Of a DNA stretch of 43,754 bases, positions 25,772 to 41,643 are shown in pieces. Numbering within the stretch: position 1 is the first letter of the stretch; every line of letters begins with the position of its first letter. Origin of the DNA: Chthonomonadales bacterium (GTDB lineage: Bacteria; Armatimonadota; Chthonomonadetes; Chthonomonadales; CAJBBX01); NCBI GenBank assembly GCA_013360745.1, contig JABWBA010000024.1, positions 1 through 43,754 on the forward strand, read 5' to 3'. Both the position numbers and the translations under genes were made by a program. The notes under the pieces were generated by a model. That model saw only the letters and a program-made list of their open reading frames with translations, was not told the origin of the DNA and searched no databases.

Positions 25772-26743
25772 TCAGACGGATGGAGTTCCGGAAGCGTTCC
25801 AGGACTCCAGCTGGCCGCACACCTGCCCCAGCCGTTCGAGACGGTAGGAGGCGTGCTCCCAGATGTAGTTGGGCAAAGCCGGATAGCGGCGTCGATCCCG
25901 TATAAGGGCGGCTCCGGCGATATCGAGGGCGAAGCCGAGCGCAATCCTGAGCATCTTGAAGCGGAGCCGAAGCGCTCCAGCGCCGGGTACCGGGTCGTTG
26001 GCGCTGCATCGGTACCCGTACAGCCCGCCGAGAAACCGTCGCCGGATGATCCATAGGACGCTCATCTTCTCGGGGCGAACCAGGTGGTCGACGCGAAGGC
26101 CGGGCTCGATGTGGATCGCGTCGGGTCCGAAGCGTTCCCGAAGCCGGTCCTGGAGCGCGGTCTCCTCGCCATACGCCATGGTCATCCCCGTCATACCGAG
26201 CTCAGGATCGAAGCCGCCGACATCCTCGAGCGCGTCCTTCCGAATGACCATGTTCATGCCAGACAGCGAACGGCCGATCAGAGGTCCTCGGTCTGAACCG
26301 AAGTCAACCGAACCGTAGGCGTCACGGAACCAGACCGGCCTCGGCGTCATATAGAACGCTCCCGCAGGCCCGCCGAACATGACCGGATGGACCTCGCGGA
26401 TAACCCGGAGCGCCGTCGAGACCCACTCCGGCGGCAGTTTGCAGTCGTCGTCCACATAGGCGACGTACTCGCCCCTGGCCTCTCGATAGCCCCTGTTGCG
26501 GGCGTGGGACAGGCCGACCTGTTCCTCCCGGATGCACCGGAGGCCGGGAATGCGGCCCGCAAACGGTCGTACGGCGGCGGCGATGTCTCCCGGCGAAGCG
26601 TTGTCGATCACGAGCGCTTCATAGGCCTGAGCCGGGGCGTCCTGTTCCGCCAGCGTGCTCAGGACCTGAGCGACGAGGTCCGGGCGGTTATAGGTGCAGA
26701 TGACGATGGAGAGCGAGAGTATCTCGCCGTTACCGTCCGACAC
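25772..26743 (-). CDS. GT2 family glycosyltransferase
   Basis: A 323-residue GT-A enzyme: LSIVICTYNRPDLVAQVL, ALVIDNASPGD, GLSHARNRGYREARGEYVAY and the DDD metal site, then GGFDPELGMTG and the acidic motif GEETALQDRLRE. It resembles the GT2 protein at 32136-33134, and both follow a related GT4 gene, so the pair looks duplicated. The start is placed at GTG 26743, which has AGGAAGG 8 nt upstream and overlaps the GT4 stop by 14 nt. A TTG at 26761 would give a protein six residues longer. Confidence 0.88.
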   Translation of the reverse strand: MSDGNGEILSLSIVICTYNRPDLVAQVLSTLAEQDAPAQAYEALVIDNASPGDIAAAVRPFAGRIPGLRCIREEQVGLSHARNRGYREARGEYVAYVDDDCKLPPEWVSTALRVIREVHPVMFGGPAGAFYMTPRPVWFRDAYGSVDFGSDRGPLIGRSLSGMNMVIRKDALEDVGGFDPELGMTGMTMAYGEETALQDRLRERFGPDAIHIEPGLRVDHLVRPEKMSVLWIIRRRFLGGLYGYRCSANDPVPGAGALRLRFKMLRIALGFALDIAGAALIRDRRRYPALPNYIWEHASYRLERLGQVCGQLESWNASGTPSV

Positions 26744-27872
26744 GCTCGAGGCCTTCCTCAATCCACTCAGTCGTTTCGCGGACCATCTTCTCCGGAGCGA
26801 ACTCCGTCCGAATCCGCTCGCGACCGATCTCGCCCATGTGCCGTCCCATGCCGGGATCTTCCATCACGGCGAGGATCGCCCGGGCCATCGCTTCGGCATC
26901 ATCCGGCGGCGTCAGGATCGCGCATCCTTCATCGCCAACGGCCTCCCGGATGCCCGGAATGTCCGTTCCTACCACAGGCAGCCCGGCTGCCATCCCCTCA
27001 AGGACGCCGTTGGGAACCCCCTCCCAGCGGGAACTGAATACGCAGCAATCGGAAGCCGCAAGAACACTGGGGACGTTGTCACTCCAACCGAGGAATCGAA
27101 CTGATCGGCCCAAGTCAAGCTCAAAGGCGAGTGCCTTAAGTGCCGTACCCAGGCCAGCGTCAAGACCTGGCAGTATTAGAAGGAGCCTATCCGGTGCACA
27201 TCGAGCGCGATCGAGTACGATCCTCCATGCACGCAGCAATGTTGGATGATCTTTGAAGGCATGGAGATTAGCCGCCATGCACGCGAGCCACATGTTATCT
27301 GTCAGTCCGTTATCGGATCGCCATATGGTACGCTGCGGAATCGAGTTCGGGATCTCGACACCGTTGTGAATGACCCTGATGCTCTCTAGGGGAGCGCCAA
27401 GCGTATTCGCAAGGAAACCGGCGCCGTGTCGCGAGTTTGATGCGAACCACGGCGTCGAACGCACCGCTAGTCTCTCCCAGCGAGGTTCCACCCGTTGGCG
27501 ACCTTCGTCGCGTTGATTCCACATACAGAGGCGTGCACCCGTCAGACGCCAGATGAGTCCACTCGCGATATTCGGGCGCATGGTGTAAGGCAGCAAAACG
27601 GTCGGCCGGAACGCACGCAGTTGTCTCGCGAGCCTAAGGAGACTCGCAATACGGCGGCGCCTGCCGTTATCCCACTCAAGCTGGTGCACGACCCATGGAA
27701 CACCTCGTTCTTCACACCACTCCGCGCCTCCGGCCGACAGGTGGAACGCAGCTACCACCGGACGTACTGAACACAGCTGTCGATACCCCACGGCTAGGTA
27801 AAGGCTCTGTCTTCCCGCCCCTGCTAGGCCTAGTCCGTTCGGTAGAATGACTATATCGTACTGGTCACGCAT
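26730..27872 (-). CDS. GT-B glycosyltransferase, GT4 family (paralogue of 33131-34267)
   Basis: A 380-residue glycosyltransferase. LLPYTMRPNIASGLIWRLTG, then ARLCMWNQRDEG, is nearly the same block as in the GT4 gene at 33131-34267. The donor half contains HAFKDHPTLLRAWRIVLD, FLGWSDNVPSVLAASDC and the E-x7-E motif EGVPNGVLE, followed by AAGLPVVGTDIPGIRE. The first third (about 27.4-27.9 kb) is less GC-rich than the last third. It begins 2 nt after the stop of the preceding gene. Confidence 0.9.
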   Translation of the reverse strand: MRDQYDIVILPNGLGLAGAGRQSLYLAVGYRQLCSVRPVVAAFHLSAGGAEWCEERGVPWVVHQLEWDNGRRRRIASLLRLARQLRAFRPTVLLPYTMRPNIASGLIWRLTGARLCMWNQRDEGRQRVEPRWERLAVRSTPWFASNSRHGAGFLANTLGAPLESIRVIHNGVEIPNSIPQRTIWRSDNGLTDNMWLACMAANLHAFKDHPTLLRAWRIVLDRARCAPDRLLLILPGLDAGLGTALKALAFELDLGRSVRFLGWSDNVPSVLAASDCCVFSSRWEGVPNGVLEGMAAGLPVVGTDIPGIREAVGDEGCAILTPPDDAEAMARAILAVMEDPGMGRHMGEIGRERIRTEFAPEKMVRETTEWIEEGLERVGR

Positions 27873-27874
27873 TG

Positions 27875-28750
27875 TCAGTACCGGAACCTGTCAATTCGGG
27901 TGTTTAGGCGCTCGCGCAGCGAACGCCAGTAAGCACCCACAACGCTTTCTTTAGCTGGGGCTTTGTGCACGGACACTGAATACGGCTCGTCCTCAAGAAA
28001 CCCACGCCGCCGGTAATCAACGACTATCCCGTGACGCTCGAACAAGGGCACTACAGCGTCTCGCACCCACTTGCCGCGAGTAATCCCTCTGTGATCAAAA
28101 GGGTAGACCTGTCTGCCCGATATGGTAAATACGTGCCTGTTAACAGTCAACATCCTCTTGCGGGTCCTGCGCCCTCGAATGTGACTCGTCTCCTCAAACA
28201 TCCACGGGCTGTCAGTTGGCCGAACGTACCGGTAAAAATCGAGCCGGTTCCACAATCCAGGTTGAAGACAGAAGCGGTACCGAGCCGCTACATCCACTTC
28301 CCACAGCAACGGGTGTTCAGTCAAATGGAACGGACCGTGGCTTCCTCGCGGGGACAGTCCAATCTGCATTGTGTCTTGGTGTGTCCAGCTCGTCTGCGAC
28401 ATAAAAGCCGCGAACTCGGCTATTGTGTCGCGTTCCACTTGATCTTCGAGAAAGAAATCCTCCTGAAGGTAGAGGACTATGGGCGTCGTGATCGTCTCCA
28501 GGCACATGCGTAGGCGTGTGCCCCACGGGAGCTGTCGCCCCCGATGAAGACCCGTCTGCACGCATCTCAGCGCTAGCGAGGACCAAGAGAAGTCCTTGCA
28601 GTCAGTCAACAGGACTATTTCGCATTCGTTTGGTGACCAGTACTTCTCAAAGAGGTGGAAGAAAGGAGGCCAGCAGTCCTCGTACGCATCACACGAACTT
28701 ACGACAATCGTGACTAGATCATCGAGTGCCACGGACACTAGCACCTCCAT
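27875..28750 (-). CDS. Putative GT-A-like protein of unknown specificity
   Basis: A 291-residue protein that I do not assign to a named family. It begins with a strand DDLVTIVVSSCDAYEDCW, then a second strand IVLLTDCKDF, a helix RLRMCLETI and TTPIVLYLQEDFFLED, where the acidic QED sits where GT-A enzymes keep the DXD metal site. RFCLQPGLWNRLDFYRYV and WMFEETSHIRG follow. This order suggests a GT-A glycosyltransferase. No signal peptide or membrane segment is visible. The gene is clearly poorer in GC than its neighbours (a 60-nt stretch from 28081 has 28 G/C) and lies directly after a truncated glycosyltransferase, so it probably arrived by recombination. Confidence 0.65.
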   Translation of the reverse strand: MEVLVSVALDDLVTIVVSSCDAYEDCWPPFFHLFEKYWSPNECEIVLLTDCKDFSWSSLALRCVQTGLHRGRQLPWGTRLRMCLETITTPIVLYLQEDFFLEDQVERDTIAEFAAFMSQTSWTHQDTMQIGLSPRGSHGPFHLTEHPLLWEVDVAARYRFCLQPGLWNRLDFYRYVRPTDSPWMFEETSHIRGRRTRKRMLTVNRHVFTISGRQVYPFDHRGITRGKWVRDAVVPLFERHGIVVDYRRRGFLEDEPYSVSVHKAPAKESVVGAYWRSLRERLNTRIDRFRY

Positions 28751-28962
28751 TCCGTCGCGCCCAGGCCATAGGGCTGCGTCATATGGGGAACCTTCTTGGG
28801 ACGCAGGACTATATTCAATGCCACTCTGTGCTTACTGAGTTCCGGTAGATGCATGCGACGCGCATCCGCCTGCCTCTCCGCGCCGCCGAGCAAGAGACCG
28901 TTTAGGACGAAAACGAAGCGGCGGGGCGATGGTCGAGCGGGTGGCATAGAACGGGAGGTCAT
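28738..28962 (-). pseudogene. Truncated GT4 glycosyltransferase, N-terminal stub
   Basis: The frame starts with an ATG overlapping the TGA of the GHMP kinase (ATGA) and encodes 74 residues. Residues 16-31 (FVFVLNGLLLGGAERQ) are the standard N-terminal strand, glycine loop and AERQ helix of GT4 enzymes, and residues about 40-55 (PELSKHRVALNIVL) fit the second strand. Then the similarity stops and the frame ends after an unrelated tail (HMTQPYGLGATEW). The remaining 300 or so residues of a glycosyltransferase are absent. It overlaps the start of the next gene by 13 nt. The simplest reading is a gene cut by insertion or deletion when the low-GC neighbour arrived; a functional mini-protein is unlikely. 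Confidence 0.7.
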
Positions 28963-29963
28963 GGGGCCTGTGCAGCCACATCCAGCCCCTCGCACGGCCT
29001 CGGCTCGAACAGCCTGTCGGCGCCGGCTTCGAGCAGGGCCGCGCGCACGCGGTCCGGATCGGTCGTCAGCGCCAGGATCGTGCCGCCGCCGCCCGCTCCG
29101 GCCAGTTTGGCTCCGAAGGCCCCTGCCGAACGTGCGGCTTCGATGAGCCGTTCGTTGGCCGGACCGGACCCGCCGAGATCCGCCACGATTCGATGGTTCT
29201 CGTTCATCAACGCTCCCAACCGCCTCCAGTCGCCATCCAGCAGGGCGCGCTTGCCGAGCCGGGCCAGCCGCGCGATCTCCTCATAGCCCTCGATTACGGC
29301 CCGATCACCCTCGAGCCATCTGTCCCGAGGCGAGCGGTGCACATCGCCGCTGTGGTGCTTGATGCCGGTATGCGCGGCGATCAGCGGCAGTTCCGGCACA
29401 TACGCGGCCAGCGGCTCCACGGTCGCCAGCGGCTCGTCCTCGGCCTGTTCGAGGCTGGCTTTACCGCGGCAGTCGATGAGGCTCAGGCCGCCGAACACGG
29501 CCATGTGCGCATCCTGATAGCCGCACAGCACGCCCAGGCTCCGGTACTCCACCCTGCGCGCCATCTCGGCCATCGCCCAGGGGTTGAGGCCCCAGCCGTA
29601 CCGGCGGTCCAGCGCTCCCACGGCCGCGGCGATGAGGGCCGCCGAGCCGCCCATCCCCGCCTGCACCGGAACATCGGTGCTCAGCTCCATCCGGAAGCCC
29701 GCATCCGGCCCGATGCCGAAGTGGCGCAGGATCGCCCGGCCCATATCGAGCCGATCCCCCGCCGGCTGCAGATCCGCCTCCCCGGCGATCATCAGCTCGG
29801 CCCCGCCGCAGGCGACCGTCAGCCCCTCTGCCGGGCGCAGCGCGCACTTCGCCCGCTCTTGCGTCGTGACGCTGATCACCGTCCCGCCGTACATGTCCGT
29901 CGGATTGCCGATGATCCCCACACGACCGGGGGCTGAACACAGGATCACACCGCCAACCCTCAT
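28959..29963 (-). CDS. GHMP-family sugar kinase (glucuronokinase-like)
   Basis: A 334-residue GHMP kinase that would phosphorylate a sugar, most likely at C1, from ATP. The three family motifs are present: PGRVGIIGNPTDMYGG (12-27), the phosphate loop QAGMGGSAALIAAA (101-114) and KLAGAGGGGTIL near 290. The GNPTDMYGG form and LGVLCGYQDAHMAVFGGL (143-160) recall glucuronokinases more than galactokinases, but HddA-type heptose kinases are also GHMP enzymes and an RfaE1-like kinase lies in this locus. The ATG overlaps the GT2 stop (ATGA). This is one of the most GC-rich genes here, next to one of the least. Confidence 0.83.
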   Translation of the reverse strand: MRVGGVILCSAPGRVGIIGNPTDMYGGTVISVTTQERAKCALRPAEGLTVACGGAELMIAGEADLQPAGDRLDMGRAILRHFGIGPDAGFRMELSTDVPVQAGMGGSAALIAAAVGALDRRYGWGLNPWAMAEMARRVEYRSLGVLCGYQDAHMAVFGGLSLIDCRGKASLEQAEDEPLATVEPLAAYVPELPLIAAHTGIKHHSGDVHRSPRDRWLEGDRAVIEGYEEIARLARLGKRALLDGDWRRLGALMNENHRIVADLGGSGPANERLIEAARSAGAFGAKLAGAGGGGTILALTTDPDRVRAALLEAGADRLFEPRPCEGLDVAAQAP

Positions 29964-35288: not shown

Positions 35289-36478
35289 GCCGTGATTCTC
35301 CGGCGAACAGCCGAGACAGCTCGAGGAAGGATCCCGCTTTTACGGCGCCTCCTCGCCGACGGCCATGGAGCGTCAGGCACGCCCGAGATAGGAGAGGACT
35401 GATACCAGTAGGCCATCCTCCCTCTTTGTAGTTCGGAACGGAAGGATGGCTCTCGCCGTGCTACCGCCTGATCCGGATTGGCGATCCGGTAGGTTGCAAT
35501 GGAGTCCGAGAGCGCCTGGATGTCCACGGTCATGTCTCCCCGATCGACCACCACCAGCTCCGTTTGAGGTCTCCATTTGGTGCAGTTCAGGCGTAAAAGG
35601 CGTACGTGGATGCCGCCCGAACTTCTACGGATCTCGAACTCAGGAGCAATCGATTCGCGATTGGCTGGAGTCTGGTGCTGAATGTCCCGATACAGGACAC
35701 CATTTCGGTCCGAGGCGACCACTTGCACATCGGGAAATACCAGATTGCCCAGACCGTAGAAGACCCATGTGTTGTGGATCTGCTCGTATCCCTGAATGAC
35801 GTGCTGGTGACATCCTACCACGATCTGTGCGCCAGCTTCTGCGGCTACCATCGCTAGCTGCATCTGTTCGGGAACAGGATAGTGCGCCTGTTCCAGCCCC
35901 CAGTGCAGGAACGCTATGACCGCATCAGCCTCCTCACGCGCCGCAGAGACCGTACATCGAAGCGTCTCCAGTCCTAGAGGCATCACGCCCGGCGTCGTCG
36001 GTGTAGCAAGATGCGCCGGATTGGTTGACGGACAACATAGCCCGACGATGGCAACCCGTATTCCGCCAACACTCAGAAGGGCGGGACGCGCCGCCTCGTG
36101 CGAGGTCTGGCCGAACCCGGTGCACTGTATCCCCATGGCATCCAGAGCAGCCCGCGTATCAGAAGCCCCTCCGATCCCGCAATCGAGGACGTGGTTATTC
36201 GCAAGAACTGCGGCGTCGAGAAATGCCAGGTTGTCTGCGATCTCAGGCGTGATACGGAGCGAGGCCCATTTGCTGGGATCCGCGGGCTGCCGGTGAGTGA
36301 TCGCGACCTCCACGTTACCGACCAGCACGTAGGGCACGCTATCGCGGCACAAGACGGATCGTACCTTTCGCAAGGCCTGCTGGCCGACAGACCCGTCCGC
36401 ACTCAAGCATATGTCGCCAACTGTGACAACCCGAACACACGAATCGGTCTCGGCGCCATCCTCCCGCATGTTACCCAT
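35279..36478 (-). CDS. capA: CapA/PgsA-like metallophosphoesterase-fold capsule protein
   Basis: A 399-residue PGA_cap protein, the family of poly-gamma-glutamate capsule protein CapA/PgsA. Landmarks are VVTVGDICL (18-25), VLVGNVEVAIT (51-61), LANNHVLDCG (92-101), LHWGLE (191-196), GCHQHVIQGYE (222-232) and YGLGNLVF (241-248), the metal-site segments of the calcineurin-like fold. No N-terminal membrane anchor or signal peptide is visible, unlike typical PgsA, so it may be cytosolic or act with a partner. No CapB or CapC is in the window. ATG 36478 overlaps the GT4 stop by 8 nt; ATG 36469 is an alternative. Confidence 0.87.
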   Translation of the reverse strand: MGNMREDGAETDSCVRVVTVGDICLSADGSVGQQALRKVRSVLCRDSVPYVLVGNVEVAITHRQPADPSKWASLRITPEIADNLAFLDAAVLANNHVLDCGIGGASDTRAALDAMGIQCTGFGQTSHEAARPALLSVGGIRVAIVGLCCPSTNPAHLATPTTPGVMPLGLETLRCTVSAAREEADAVIAFLHWGLEQAHYPVPEQMQLAMVAAEAGAQIVVGCHQHVIQGYEQIHNTWVFYGLGNLVFPDVQVVASDRNGVLYRDIQHQTPANRESIAPEFEIRRSSGGIHVRLLRLNCTKWRPQTELVVVDRGDMTVDIQALSDSIATYRIANPDQAVARREPSFRSELQRGRMAYWYQSSPISGVPDAPWPSARRRRKSGILPRAVSAVRRRITAWL

Positions 36479-37736
36479 CGACCTGTGCCCTGTCACGCCC
36501 TGCGAATAGCCGACCCAGCGCTTGTGAGTACGCTTCGAGGACTGCGGATTGATCCGCAGTGCAGCGGCGAAATCCGTCTGCGGCCGCCGCCCTCCATGCG
36601 GGATCCGCTCCCGACTGAATGAGCGCTCGAATCGCACCGTCTAGTTCGTCAGGCCATCGGAGGGTCTCTGGGATCACAATACCTGTTCCTGATGACTGAA
36701 GATGGTCGATGTAATCGGCATGCGCGCCCGTCGTTAGGACAGGGAGGCCAGCCGCCATATAGTCCTGCAGTTTGGAAGAGTTCACCACGGTATTCATTGT
36801 ATGTCGGTGCCGCGGGAATACCGCAATATCGCAGGCCGAGAGGTAATCGCCGAGAGTCTCGGGAGGGACGCATAGTACGATCGCCGGATAACGCTGGTCT
36901 TCAGAAGCGAGATGCTCGCGGGCAAGCGCATGATCATCTCGAGGTACCATACAGACGAGGCGGGTCCCATATCCACGACTCTGCATCCAGGCGACCATTC
37001 GGACCAGATCCGGGAACCGTTGCCAAGCGCATCTGACGTTCCCGACATACGCGACGACACAATCCGAACCAACCTGGAGTTGTTCACGTATACGCATCCG
37101 AGAGTTATTGATAAAGGTGATCCCGGTATCGATCGGATCAGGGCATAAGAGGTACGTAGCCTCGTTCGTGCGTTGTTGCCATAAACGAATATGCTCCTGG
37201 CTGACCAAAGCGGTGGCATCTACAGCCTCGACCTGACGGCTATCTGCAGCCACAAACGCATTGAACCGCTCACGCTGCCGGTCGGTAGGATGGTCGAGCG
37301 GGCCGTCTGGTAACGAGTATGTCGACGCATACAGATCTTCGTATGCTCGATCTCCCTCCATCTCGTAGACGACTCTCACCGACCGCCGGAATGCCCGTGC
37401 GAGCTTGCGGCCTCTTAGAGCACCCCAAGGCGAACAACGCCGCACCTGCACCACCACGCCAGATGACGACATCGAACCCAACATCACCAGTCGTGCCGTA
37501 ACCCAATCTCTCGCCCTCGTGCTTCCTACAACAACGAGCCGTACCCCATGTCGAGCCCAGGTCGACTTACAAGCCTCCGATGCATCCGCGTAATCACTGC
37601 GAGTCATGATCGCCAGACAACGTGTTTGCCACCCATACCGCGCAAGGACCTGCATTTTCCGTTCGTATACATGAGCGTGACGCCACGCTTCAGGGCTTAC
37701 CATATAAAGGAACGTGCGTTTTGGCTTGCGAGCCAC
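36471..37736 (-). CDS. GT-B glycosyltransferase-like protein
   Basis: A 421-residue protein with GT-B features. The N-terminus KRTFLYMVSPEAWRHAHVYE and VLARYGWQTRCLA fit an acceptor domain. The C-terminal half has CVVAYVGNVRCAWQRFPDLV, GDYLSACDIAVFPR and SSKLQDYMAAGLPVLTTGA, where a Lys-containing KLQDYMAAG replaces the usual E-x7-E. It is the first gene of the long minus-strand series: GTG at 37736 is preceded by GGGAGGGA 5 nt upstream, and a hairpin overlaps that SD. The region is less GC-rich than the rest. Confidence 0.82.
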   Translation of the reverse strand: MARKPKRTFLYMVSPEAWRHAHVYERKMQVLARYGWQTRCLAIMTRSDYADASEACKSTWARHGVRLVVVGSTRARDWVTARLVMLGSMSSSGVVVQVRRCSPWGALRGRKLARAFRRSVRVVYEMEGDRAYEDLYASTYSLPDGPLDHPTDRQRERFNAFVAADSRQVEAVDATALVSQEHIRLWQQRTNEATYLLCPDPIDTGITFINNSRMRIREQLQVGSDCVVAYVGNVRCAWQRFPDLVRMVAWMQSRGYGTRLVCMVPRDDHALAREHLASEDQRYPAIVLCVPPETLGDYLSACDIAVFPRHRHTMNTVVNSSKLQDYMAAGLPVLTTGAHADYIDHLQSSGTGIVIPETLRWPDELDGAIRALIQSGADPAWRAAAADGFRRCTADQSAVLEAYSQALGRLFAGRDRAQVDG

Positions 37737-40064: not shown

Positions 40065-40070
40065 GTTAGC
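40060..40070. repeat. 11-bp direct repeat, left copy (GTCATGTTAGC)
   Basis: GTCATGTTAGC spans the wzt start codon (CAT) and abuts the first unit of the heptamer array. An identical copy lies at 40252-40262, just beyond the array. The position is that expected of a target-site duplication or of a recombination footprint bracketing the array. Confidence 0.6.
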
Positions 40071-40245
40071 TGAGAGCTGAGAGCTGAGAGCTGAGGGCTG
40101 AGAGCTGAGGGCTGAGAGCTGAGAGCTGAGAGCTGAGGGCTGAGAGCTGAGGGCTGAGAGCTGAGAGCTGAGGGCTGAGAGCTGAGGGCTGAGAGCTGAG
40201 GGCTGAGAGCTGAGGGCTGAGAGCTGAGGGCTGAGAGCTGAGGGC
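40071..40245. repeat. Heptamer array A: 25 perfect tandem units TGAGRGC
   Basis: The plus strand reads 25 uninterrupted 7-bp units: 15 TGAGAGC and 10 TGAGGGC, partly alternating, followed by one degenerate unit (GGAGAAG). No spacers are present. On the coding (minus) strand it is GCYCTCA, free of stop codons in all three frames, and pyrimidine-rich exactly where the wzt Shine-Dalgarno should be. Since 7 is not a multiple of 3, gain or loss of a unit shifts the frame. Confidence 0.95.
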
Positions 40246-40251
40246 GGAGAA

Positions 40252-40634: not shown

Positions 40635-40668
40635 CCCTCAGCCCTCAGCCCTCAGCCCTCAGCTCTCG
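40635..40668. repeat. Heptamer array B: inverted orientation, about five units
   Basis: The plus strand reads CCCTCA, three perfect GCCCTCA units and one GCTCTCG, which is the reverse complement of the array A unit (TGAGGGC on the minus strand). It fills the whole gap between the wzm stop and the four-helix-bundle start, so the small gene is flanked by inverted copies of the same heptamer. Confidence 0.92.
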
Positions 40669-40669
40669 C

Positions 40670-41611
40670 CTACACCGTATCCATAAAATCCCGCTCGACG
40701 CGCTTGAAGAGGATGATGCCGACGAAGAGGACGGAGGCGGCGAAGGCGGCGCTGTACCAGAGCTGGACCGGGGGGCAGGTGGCGACGCCGAGGACGCCGC
40801 GGCGCCAGGTCTCAATGACCGGGGTCATCGGGTTCCAGAGCATCACGGATCGGAGCCGACCCGTGACCATGGATAGCGGGTAGACGACGGGTGTGGAGTA
40901 CATCCACAGGGCGACCAGGAACCCGAGGAGCTGGGTGAGATCTCGGTAGCGGGTTGTGAGCGAGGAGATGATGATCCCCGTCCCCACGCCCATAACCATG
41001 GCGATGAAAGCAAGGATGGGAAGCGTGAAGAGCCAGGCCGAGGGCCGGACGGTTGCGCCGGTAAGGGTGAAGTATAGATAGAACAGCATCAGGACGATCA
41101 ACTGAATGCTAAAGGAGATCAGCTTCGATATGGTATTGGCTAGCGGCGTCACCAATCTCGGGAAGTAGACTTTGCCGAAGAGACCGGCATTGCCAGTGAA
41201 GGTGCTCGCGTTGCCATTGAGGCAGTTGGAGAAGAGGATCCACATGAGGGATCCGGTCATGTAGAACAGGACGGGCGGAACATCGTCGGTCGGGAGCCGG
41301 GCGATCTTGCTGAAGACGACTGTGGAAAGGATCGTCGCGGTTAGCGGCTGGATGAAGTGCCACGCAGGCCCGAGGATGTACTGCTTGTAGGCCGCCACGA
41401 AGTCGCGCCAGACAAAAAGAAAGACGAGGTCCCTGTAGCGCCAGACCTCACCGAGGTTGAGGTCGAGGAGATGGCGTTGGGCGCGGATGATTGTGGTCCA
41501 TCCCCCCTCGTCGGGGCCGAGCTCGGGCAGCGACGAGTCGGCGCCCGGCCCGGGGGATTGCGCCAGGGACGGGGTGGGCACGGCTTCGGAAGTGGTTGGG
41601 TTAGGAGCCAA
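40670..41611 (-). CDS. wzm: ABC-2 type polysaccharide export permease
   Basis: A 313-residue membrane protein with six hydrophobic segments. LGEVWRYRDLVFLFVWRDFV (53-72) and YKQYILGPAWHFIQPL (75-90) are the signature of O-antigen/teichoic acid ABC exporter permeases; NTISKLISF and YRDLTQLLGFLVALWMYSTPVVYP further along also fit. With Wzt it forms the channel that moves a lipid-linked glycan to the periplasmic side. The N-terminal 35 residues are Pro/Ser-rich and likely disordered. The start is uncertain: TTG at 41611 lies at the end of heptamer array C, and the next candidate is GTG at 41581; neither has an SD, and no ATG is available. Confidence 0.9.
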   Translation of the reverse strand: MAPNPTTSEAVPTPSLAQSPGPGADSSLPELGPDEGGWTTIIRAQRHLLDLNLGEVWRYRDLVFLFVWRDFVAAYKQYILGPAWHFIQPLTATILSTVVFSKIARLPTDDVPPVLFYMTGSLMWILFSNCLNGNASTFTGNAGLFGKVYFPRLVTPLANTISKLISFSIQLIVLMLFYLYFTLTGATVRPSAWLFTLPILAFIAMVMGVGTGIIISSLTTRYRDLTQLLGFLVALWMYSTPVVYPLSMVTGRLRSVMLWNPMTPVIETWRRGVLGVATCPPVQLWYSAAFAASVLFVGIILFKRVERDFMDTV

Positions 41612-41643
41612 GAGCTGAGAGCCGAGAGCTGAGAGCGGAGAGC
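41609..41643. repeat. Heptamer array C: five divergent units
   Basis: The plus strand reads CAAGAGC, TGAGAGC, CGAGAGC, TGAGAGC, GGAGAGC: the same family as array A, in the same orientation, but more diverged. It fills the gap between the glycosyltransferase stop and the wzm start, and the putative wzm TTG start is part of its last unit. Confidence 0.85.

Follow-up and report, generated by a model that had tools for sequence, protein, structure and literature searches.

A GT4 glycosyltransferase gene probably split by recombination in a glycan locus of a Chthonomonadales bacterium

A native GT4 glycosyltransferase gene in a surface-sugar locus of a Chthonomonadales bacterium was probably split by a recombined insert, leaving a short stub upstream, at the stop codon of a GHMP kinase gene, and a rebuilt, mosaic GT4 gene downstream. 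The evidence comes from the correspondence between the stub and the start of an uninterrupted GT4 gene in a relative, from the collinearity of the flanking genes and the absence of the inserted gene in that relative, from a structural model of the inserted protein with a GT-A fold, and from a tract of atypical codon usage that covers the region.

The locus and its syntenic relative

The window, that is, the whole stretch of 43,754 nucleotides that was analyzed, is one of the 127 contigs of a 3.3-Mb genome, and its relatives are Armatimonadota. It contains a surface-sugar or glycan biosynthesis locus with profile matches to GT2 and GT4 glycosyltransferases, an NAD-dependent epimerase, an ATP-grasp protein, and PGA_cap, and a reading of the frames adds ABC-transporter-like and further genes. 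No Rfam families were found in the window. The features discussed below all lie on the minus strand.

25772..26761, minus strand: GT2 gene, directly after GT4 in the window and in the relative
26730..27872, minus strand: intact GT4 gene (380 aa), read as the native GT4 continuation with first ~50 residues of a non-native type
27875..28738, minus strand: inserted gene (287 aa from GTG 28738; 291 aa from ATG 28750), putative GT-A-fold glycosyltransferase
28738..28962, minus strand: stub frame of 74 codons, from ATG 28962 to the stop TAG at 28740-28738
28867..28962, minus strand: stub codons 1-32, apparently the native 5' end of the GT4 gene
28738..28866, minus strand: stub codons 33-74 and stop, foreign sequence or strongly decayed GT4
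28959..29963, minus strand: GHMP kinase gene (PF00288 and PF08544 above cut-off), its stop overlapping the stub ATG as ATGA

Comparisons were made within a phylum set of 291 Armatimonadota genomes, comprising the window's own and 290 others. The syntenic comparator is JAAYVH010000205.1 (L096), from the metagenome-assembled Chthonomonadales bacterium isolate AS27yjCOA_40 and evidently a contig of genome G007, which belongs to the same family as the window genome. L096 has the gene order GT2, GHMP kinase, GT4, GT2, GT, and methyltransferase, and its products share 44, 69-75, 61, 70, 64, and 56% identity, respectively, with those encoded in the window. The preliminary description had proposed a search of related genomes for a full-length GT4 gene directly after the GHMP kinase; L096 possesses this gene, with collinear flanking genes, and the inserted gene is absent from L096 and G007. 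Among the six same-family loci examined (L096 and L104-L108), the kinase-GT4 arrangement was seen in L096 only.

A metagenome chimera of two loci might be suspected in a genome of 127 contigs that was judged from its assembly, but collinear genes flank the insert on both sides, so that two independent wrong joins in one gene would be needed, and the frames are open across the tract. An assembly artefact is thus very unlikely.

The kinase gene of the comparator itself is split over two reading frames (L096:1766-2766), which match kinase residues 2-150 and 154-334, respectively; this corresponds to either a frameshift or a sequencing error.

A stranded GT4 start behind the GHMP kinase gene

The preliminary description of a 74-residue frame whose ATG is coupled to the GHMP kinase stop is confirmed by the ATGA overlap. 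The GT4 gene of L096 starts with GTG 2763 and overlaps the stop of its kinase gene in the same manner, as GTGA. When the translations were placed side by side, with the start codon read as Met, stub codons 1-32 aligned without a gap to codons 1-32 of the L096 GT4, with 18 of 32 residues identical, among them all of the final 13. The stub carries the GT4-type start LNGLLLGGAERQA, and its codons 19-31 encode VLNGLLLGGAERQ. At the DNA level, the same segment scored 58 against the 5' end of the L096 GT4 gene, compared to a maximum of 34 in 2000 shuffles. This gap-free match and the shared overlap with the kinase stop argue for the descent of the stub 5' end from a GT4 gene.

It had been proposed that the GT4 N-terminus loses similarity after about 55 codons and that the breakpoint is near 28.80 kb. 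The GT4 start holds, but not the extent: the similarity is clear as far as codon 32 (28867) and marginal in codons 33-57. Whether the tail is a decayed GT4 was addressed by six protein tests of codons 33-57 or 33-74, four with shuffles (p values of 0.046, 0.39, 0.15, and 0.23) and two with profiles (0.45 and 0.048), and the DNA test of the tail gave 0.83. The best local match of the stub in the phylum spans codons 13-55. Codons 33-57 may still be weakly GT4-like, which would move the left join. The tail has a GC content of 57.1%, and no homologue above noise was found in the 290 other genomes (best E value of 0.03); at an E value of ≤1, it matched in 105 of the 291 genomes, own included, as chance allows.

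At an E value of ≤0.001, the stub matched in only two of the 291 genomes, its own and G007, and in G007 it matched the beginning of a frame of 407 codons. Conserved short homologues, named beforehand as the finding that would speak for a genuine small gene, were not seen at this threshold in any of the 290 other Armatimonadota genomes, and neither the whole stub nor its tail matched a Pfam family at an E value of 10 or better, the GT4 domain profiles included. These results bear on whether the frame could be a small gene in its own right, or a leader peptide maintained by selection. The overlaps at both ends, ATGA at the start and TAGTG at the stop, could indeed hand on ribosomes, but a 42-codon frame of the composition of the tail remains open in 18% of shuffles, and the codon usage of the stub fits the genome poorly. 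With neither short homologues in these 290 genomes nor a Pfam family, a small gene is extremely unlikely. Judged by these comparisons, the stub is a vestige, the 5' end of a GT4 gene. It most likely has no enzymatic role, and at most it would pass ribosomes arriving at the kinase stop on to the start codon of the inserted gene.

The inserted gene encodes a putative GT-A-fold glycosyltransferase

The inserted gene probably starts at GTG 28738, which is preceded by GGAGG, overlaps the stub stop as TAGTG, and fits the position at which the relatives begin; ATG 28750 is a possible alternative. No family was found for the protein in Pfam or NCBIfam. PF00535, the Pfam GT2 profile, matched neither the inserted protein nor five relatives at an E value of 1. 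Against PDB sequences, the best single-sequence E value was 0.07 or worse, and a profile search gave no match at an E value of 1.

AlphaFold2 reached a pLDDT of 35.3 from the single sequence, compared to a pLDDT of 83.9 and a pTM of 0.81 with the alignment of ten distant relatives from viral contigs of IMG/VR (L163-L172). These relatives were detected by profile, and the inserted protein as a single sequence had no match among the viral contigs. In VIA-align, the model was closest to human B4GALNT1 (9h6k and 9h6j), with a Z score of 16.8 over 183 residues at 2.6-2.7 Å and 15% identity. The best VIA-align rows were GT-A enzymes, and Foldseek likewise put the model among GT-A glycosyltransferases, with an E value of 1.4e-07. 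The predicted protein therefore shares the GT-A fold of B4GALNT1, but differs from it in sequence, with 15% identity and no sequence match in Pfam, NCBIfam, or PDB. D94, in an LQED-type motif after a strand, is invariant in 6/6 and 11/11 rows. It stands where a DxD motif usually sits in GT-A enzymes and may belong to a metal-binding acidic motif. The columns of W163, E182, and W224 are likewise conserved between the inserted protein and the ten viral-contig relatives. The assignment as a GT-A transferase is well supported by the model, and the activity is putative.

Relatives of the inserted gene are rare, being found in 3 of the 290 other Armatimonadota genomes at 37-47% identity, where they lie in glycan loci and near GT4, GT2-like, GT-D-like, O-antigen-ligase-like, Wzz-type, and methyltransferase-like genes. 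A plasmid search gave one match at 24.5%, and this Parabacteroides plasmid relative sits in an O-antigen-type locus. The single match of a phage search, at 31.2%, was to a 7.7-kb record that carries no annotation. These proteins appear to form an unnamed glycosyltransferase family common to phages and bacteria. No donor of the insert was found among the 291 phylum genomes, plasmids, phages, and viral contigs.

The intact GT4 gene downstream

The GT4 protein encoded downstream of the insert is a GT4 member by profile, with PF13692 (E value of 3.6e-27), PF00534 (1.2e-26), and PF13439 (6e-08) above cut-off; in the stub, by contrast, GT4-like sequence is limited to 32 codons and no domain is recognized. 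The L096 GT4 and the window GT4 are both also hit by GT4 profiles of NCBIfam, at scores below the cut-offs. The two proteins are 61% identical and are orthologous over most of the length of the window GT4, and the next best sequences in the 291 genomes reach 37-42%.

This similarity is unevenly distributed. Identity to the L096 GT4 is 42% at residues 7-40 and 39% at residues 41-76, rises to 71% at residues 77-114 and 89% at residues 115-152, and is 47-53% at residues 153-266 and 63-76% at residues 267-376. In residues 7-40, the window GT4 is the outlier of the alignment, with 29-42% identity to the six others compared to 42-76% in the 15 other pairs, and it has AGAGRQ in place of the GGAERQ present in all six other aligned sequences. 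When similarity to L096 in excess of that to five outgroup sequences was measured site by site, it shifted at residue 50 (permutation p = 0.005), with a main range of 37-73 and weaker alternatives at 271-276 and 362-365 within two log-likelihood units. Because of this shift and of the AGAGRQ outlier, the stub is considered to have the native-type N-terminus and the downstream GT4 a different one.

The alternative that the N-terminus of the window GT4 is native and has diverged fast is a counterpoint to the split reading. A related proposal is that the insert arrived with a copy of a GT4 5' end, which is now the stub, and that the downstream GT4 kept its own, fast-diverging N-terminus. In its favor, the N-terminal regions of GT4 proteins vary generally, the N-terminus of the window GT4 is still closest to that of L096 (45%), and, the window itself aside, its first 83 residues match the L096 GT4 best. 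However, GGAERQ would then have been kept in a supposedly unused stub and lost in the working copy, and no clear flanking repeat was found at 26600-29300, where repeats were short or imperfect, in two or three copies, and possible by chance. Such an insertion with duplication is quite improbable. Nor do these repeats speak for the arrival of the insert on a mobile element.

Composition and codon usage

Composition was judged against a baseline of 176 genes, taken from 298 kb of the window's genome (mean GC content of 62.8%, standard deviation of 3.2). The preliminary description had called the gene after the stub markedly GC-poor. It is GC-poor, at 55.3% (percentile 0.6), but "markedly" is a little strong, given its GC3 of 63.8% (percentile 8.5) and the lower GC3 of the gene at 36471-37736. 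The codon scores of the inserted gene and of the window GT4 are both atypical, at percentile 2.3. When a two-level model was fitted across seven consecutive genes, it delimited a tract of atypical codon usage:

26960-28976 (best fit; outer limits 26951..29021), minus strand: atypical codon usage tract of ~2 kb

Its left edge is at 28976 (29021-28835) and its right edge at 26960 (26972-26951), so that it spans the stub, the insert, and most of the GT4 gene. The tract has a z score of 11.4, above all 52 of the 52 baseline windows, for which the maximum was 8.67. Its right edge lies inside the GT4 gene at residue ~305 and not at residue ~50, and the codon change inside the GT4 gene alone is not unusual, being reached by 10.6% of 141 baseline genes. 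The two estimates of the right breakpoint disagree, and it would lie between residues ~50, from similarity, and ~305, from codon usage.

Rarity and composition also bear on a scenario of deletions between tandem paralogues. An ancestor with the order GHMP kinase, GT4a, inserted gene, and GT4b could have given rise to the window by a cut of GT4a to 32 codons and to L096 by a deletion that removed the intervening gene and left the front of GT4a joined to the remainder of GT4b. This would explain the complete but different N-terminus of the window GT4 without an incoming GT4 fragment. However, it requires two separate deletions, one of them yielding a clean hybrid in L096, and neither a second GT4 nor a trace of the inserted gene was found in L096 and G007. 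Moreover, few genomes carry the inserted gene (4 of the 291, counting its own), and its composition is atypical, which favors gain. The tandem scenario is therefore unlikely.

A probable recombinational origin of the mosaic

The reading that accounts best for these data is the split of the native GT4 gene by recombination. The ancestral operon would have had the order GT2, GHMP kinase, GT4, GT2, GT, and methyltransferase, as it still does in L096. Incoming DNA with an unrelated GT-A glycosyltransferase gene, probably followed by the 5' part of a GT4-like gene, would have recombined into the native GT4 gene. The first 32 codons of the latter would have been left at the kinase stop, where 42 codons of other sequence now follow them, and the remaining GT4 would continue past the new gene, intact and with a different N-terminus. 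The locus would thereby possess one transferase more than before, with its GT4 retained in rebuilt form. The initial proposal that a GT4 gene was cut by a foreign glycosyltransferase-like gene is thus borne out as to the cut, given the absence of the insert in the relative and the GT-A fold model, but not as to a simple loss, given the intact GT4 downstream. We infer the direction of this change from a single syntenic comparator, and it is weakly rooted.

As for the mechanism, the incoming DNA may have paired by homology within the GT4 coding sequence at one end and been joined illegitimately, near codon 32, at the other. On the presumed anchor side, native-type GT4 sequence resumes after residue ~50 by similarity or ~305 by codon usage, and at the putative illegitimate join similarity halts at codon 32. 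A 9-nt match, GGCGCGGAG, links the stub with GT4 residues 48-52 and may be due to chance. PMC5361080 proposes homology-facilitated illegitimate recombination for the displacement of type VI secretion system (T6SS) effectors in V. cholerae, with fragments beside the newcomer. The two cases would share one conserved anchor, another end without homology, and a displaced fragment that adjoins the newcomer, whereas here the stranded 5' end is upstream, the gene that was displaced has been rebuilt and is intact, and the mechanism is a proposal. Homology-facilitated illegitimate recombination or a two-step route would be equally possible, because the same paper notes that the former is rare compared to ordinary homologous recombination.

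A bolder extension is that the stub, in frame across the join and overlapping both neighbors, links translation of the acquired transferase gene to that of the kinase gene as a translational bridge, and that the GT-A family, shared with viral contigs, travels as a cassette with a GT4 front, whose capture would rewrite the N-terminal domain of the resident GT4 in one step. This idea is speculative and rather unlikely.

The event is of an ordinary kind, nicely preserved. In a phylum that has received little study, the locus would record a legible intermediate stage in the change of a glycan locus. It retains the rebuilt gene together with the stranded 5' end, so that a single locus allows the sequence of events to be argued. 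A further outcome is a GT-A-fold glycosyltransferase family of bacteria and viral contigs, which has no Pfam model and which sequence profiles alone leave unnamed. A few term searches returned no description of this locus in the literature, which is no proof of absence.

Further observations in the window

The gene at 36471-37736 has a GC content of 57.7%, a GC3 of 57.5%, which is below all 176 baseline genes, and a codon score at percentile 2.3, and it is a candidate for a separate acquisition. Furthermore, heptamer arrays of AGCTGAG (~26 copies at 40068-40250, and also at 40635-40667 and 41605-41643) are located beside or between ABC-transporter-like genes of the locus. The three-unit pattern of this heptamer occurs 130 times in the genome (80 forward and 50 reverse, with up to 2 mismatches), compared to 0 for the reversed control, and the listed places are mostly on contigs C18, C91, and C111. 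The array is possibly a slippage-prone interspersed repeat.
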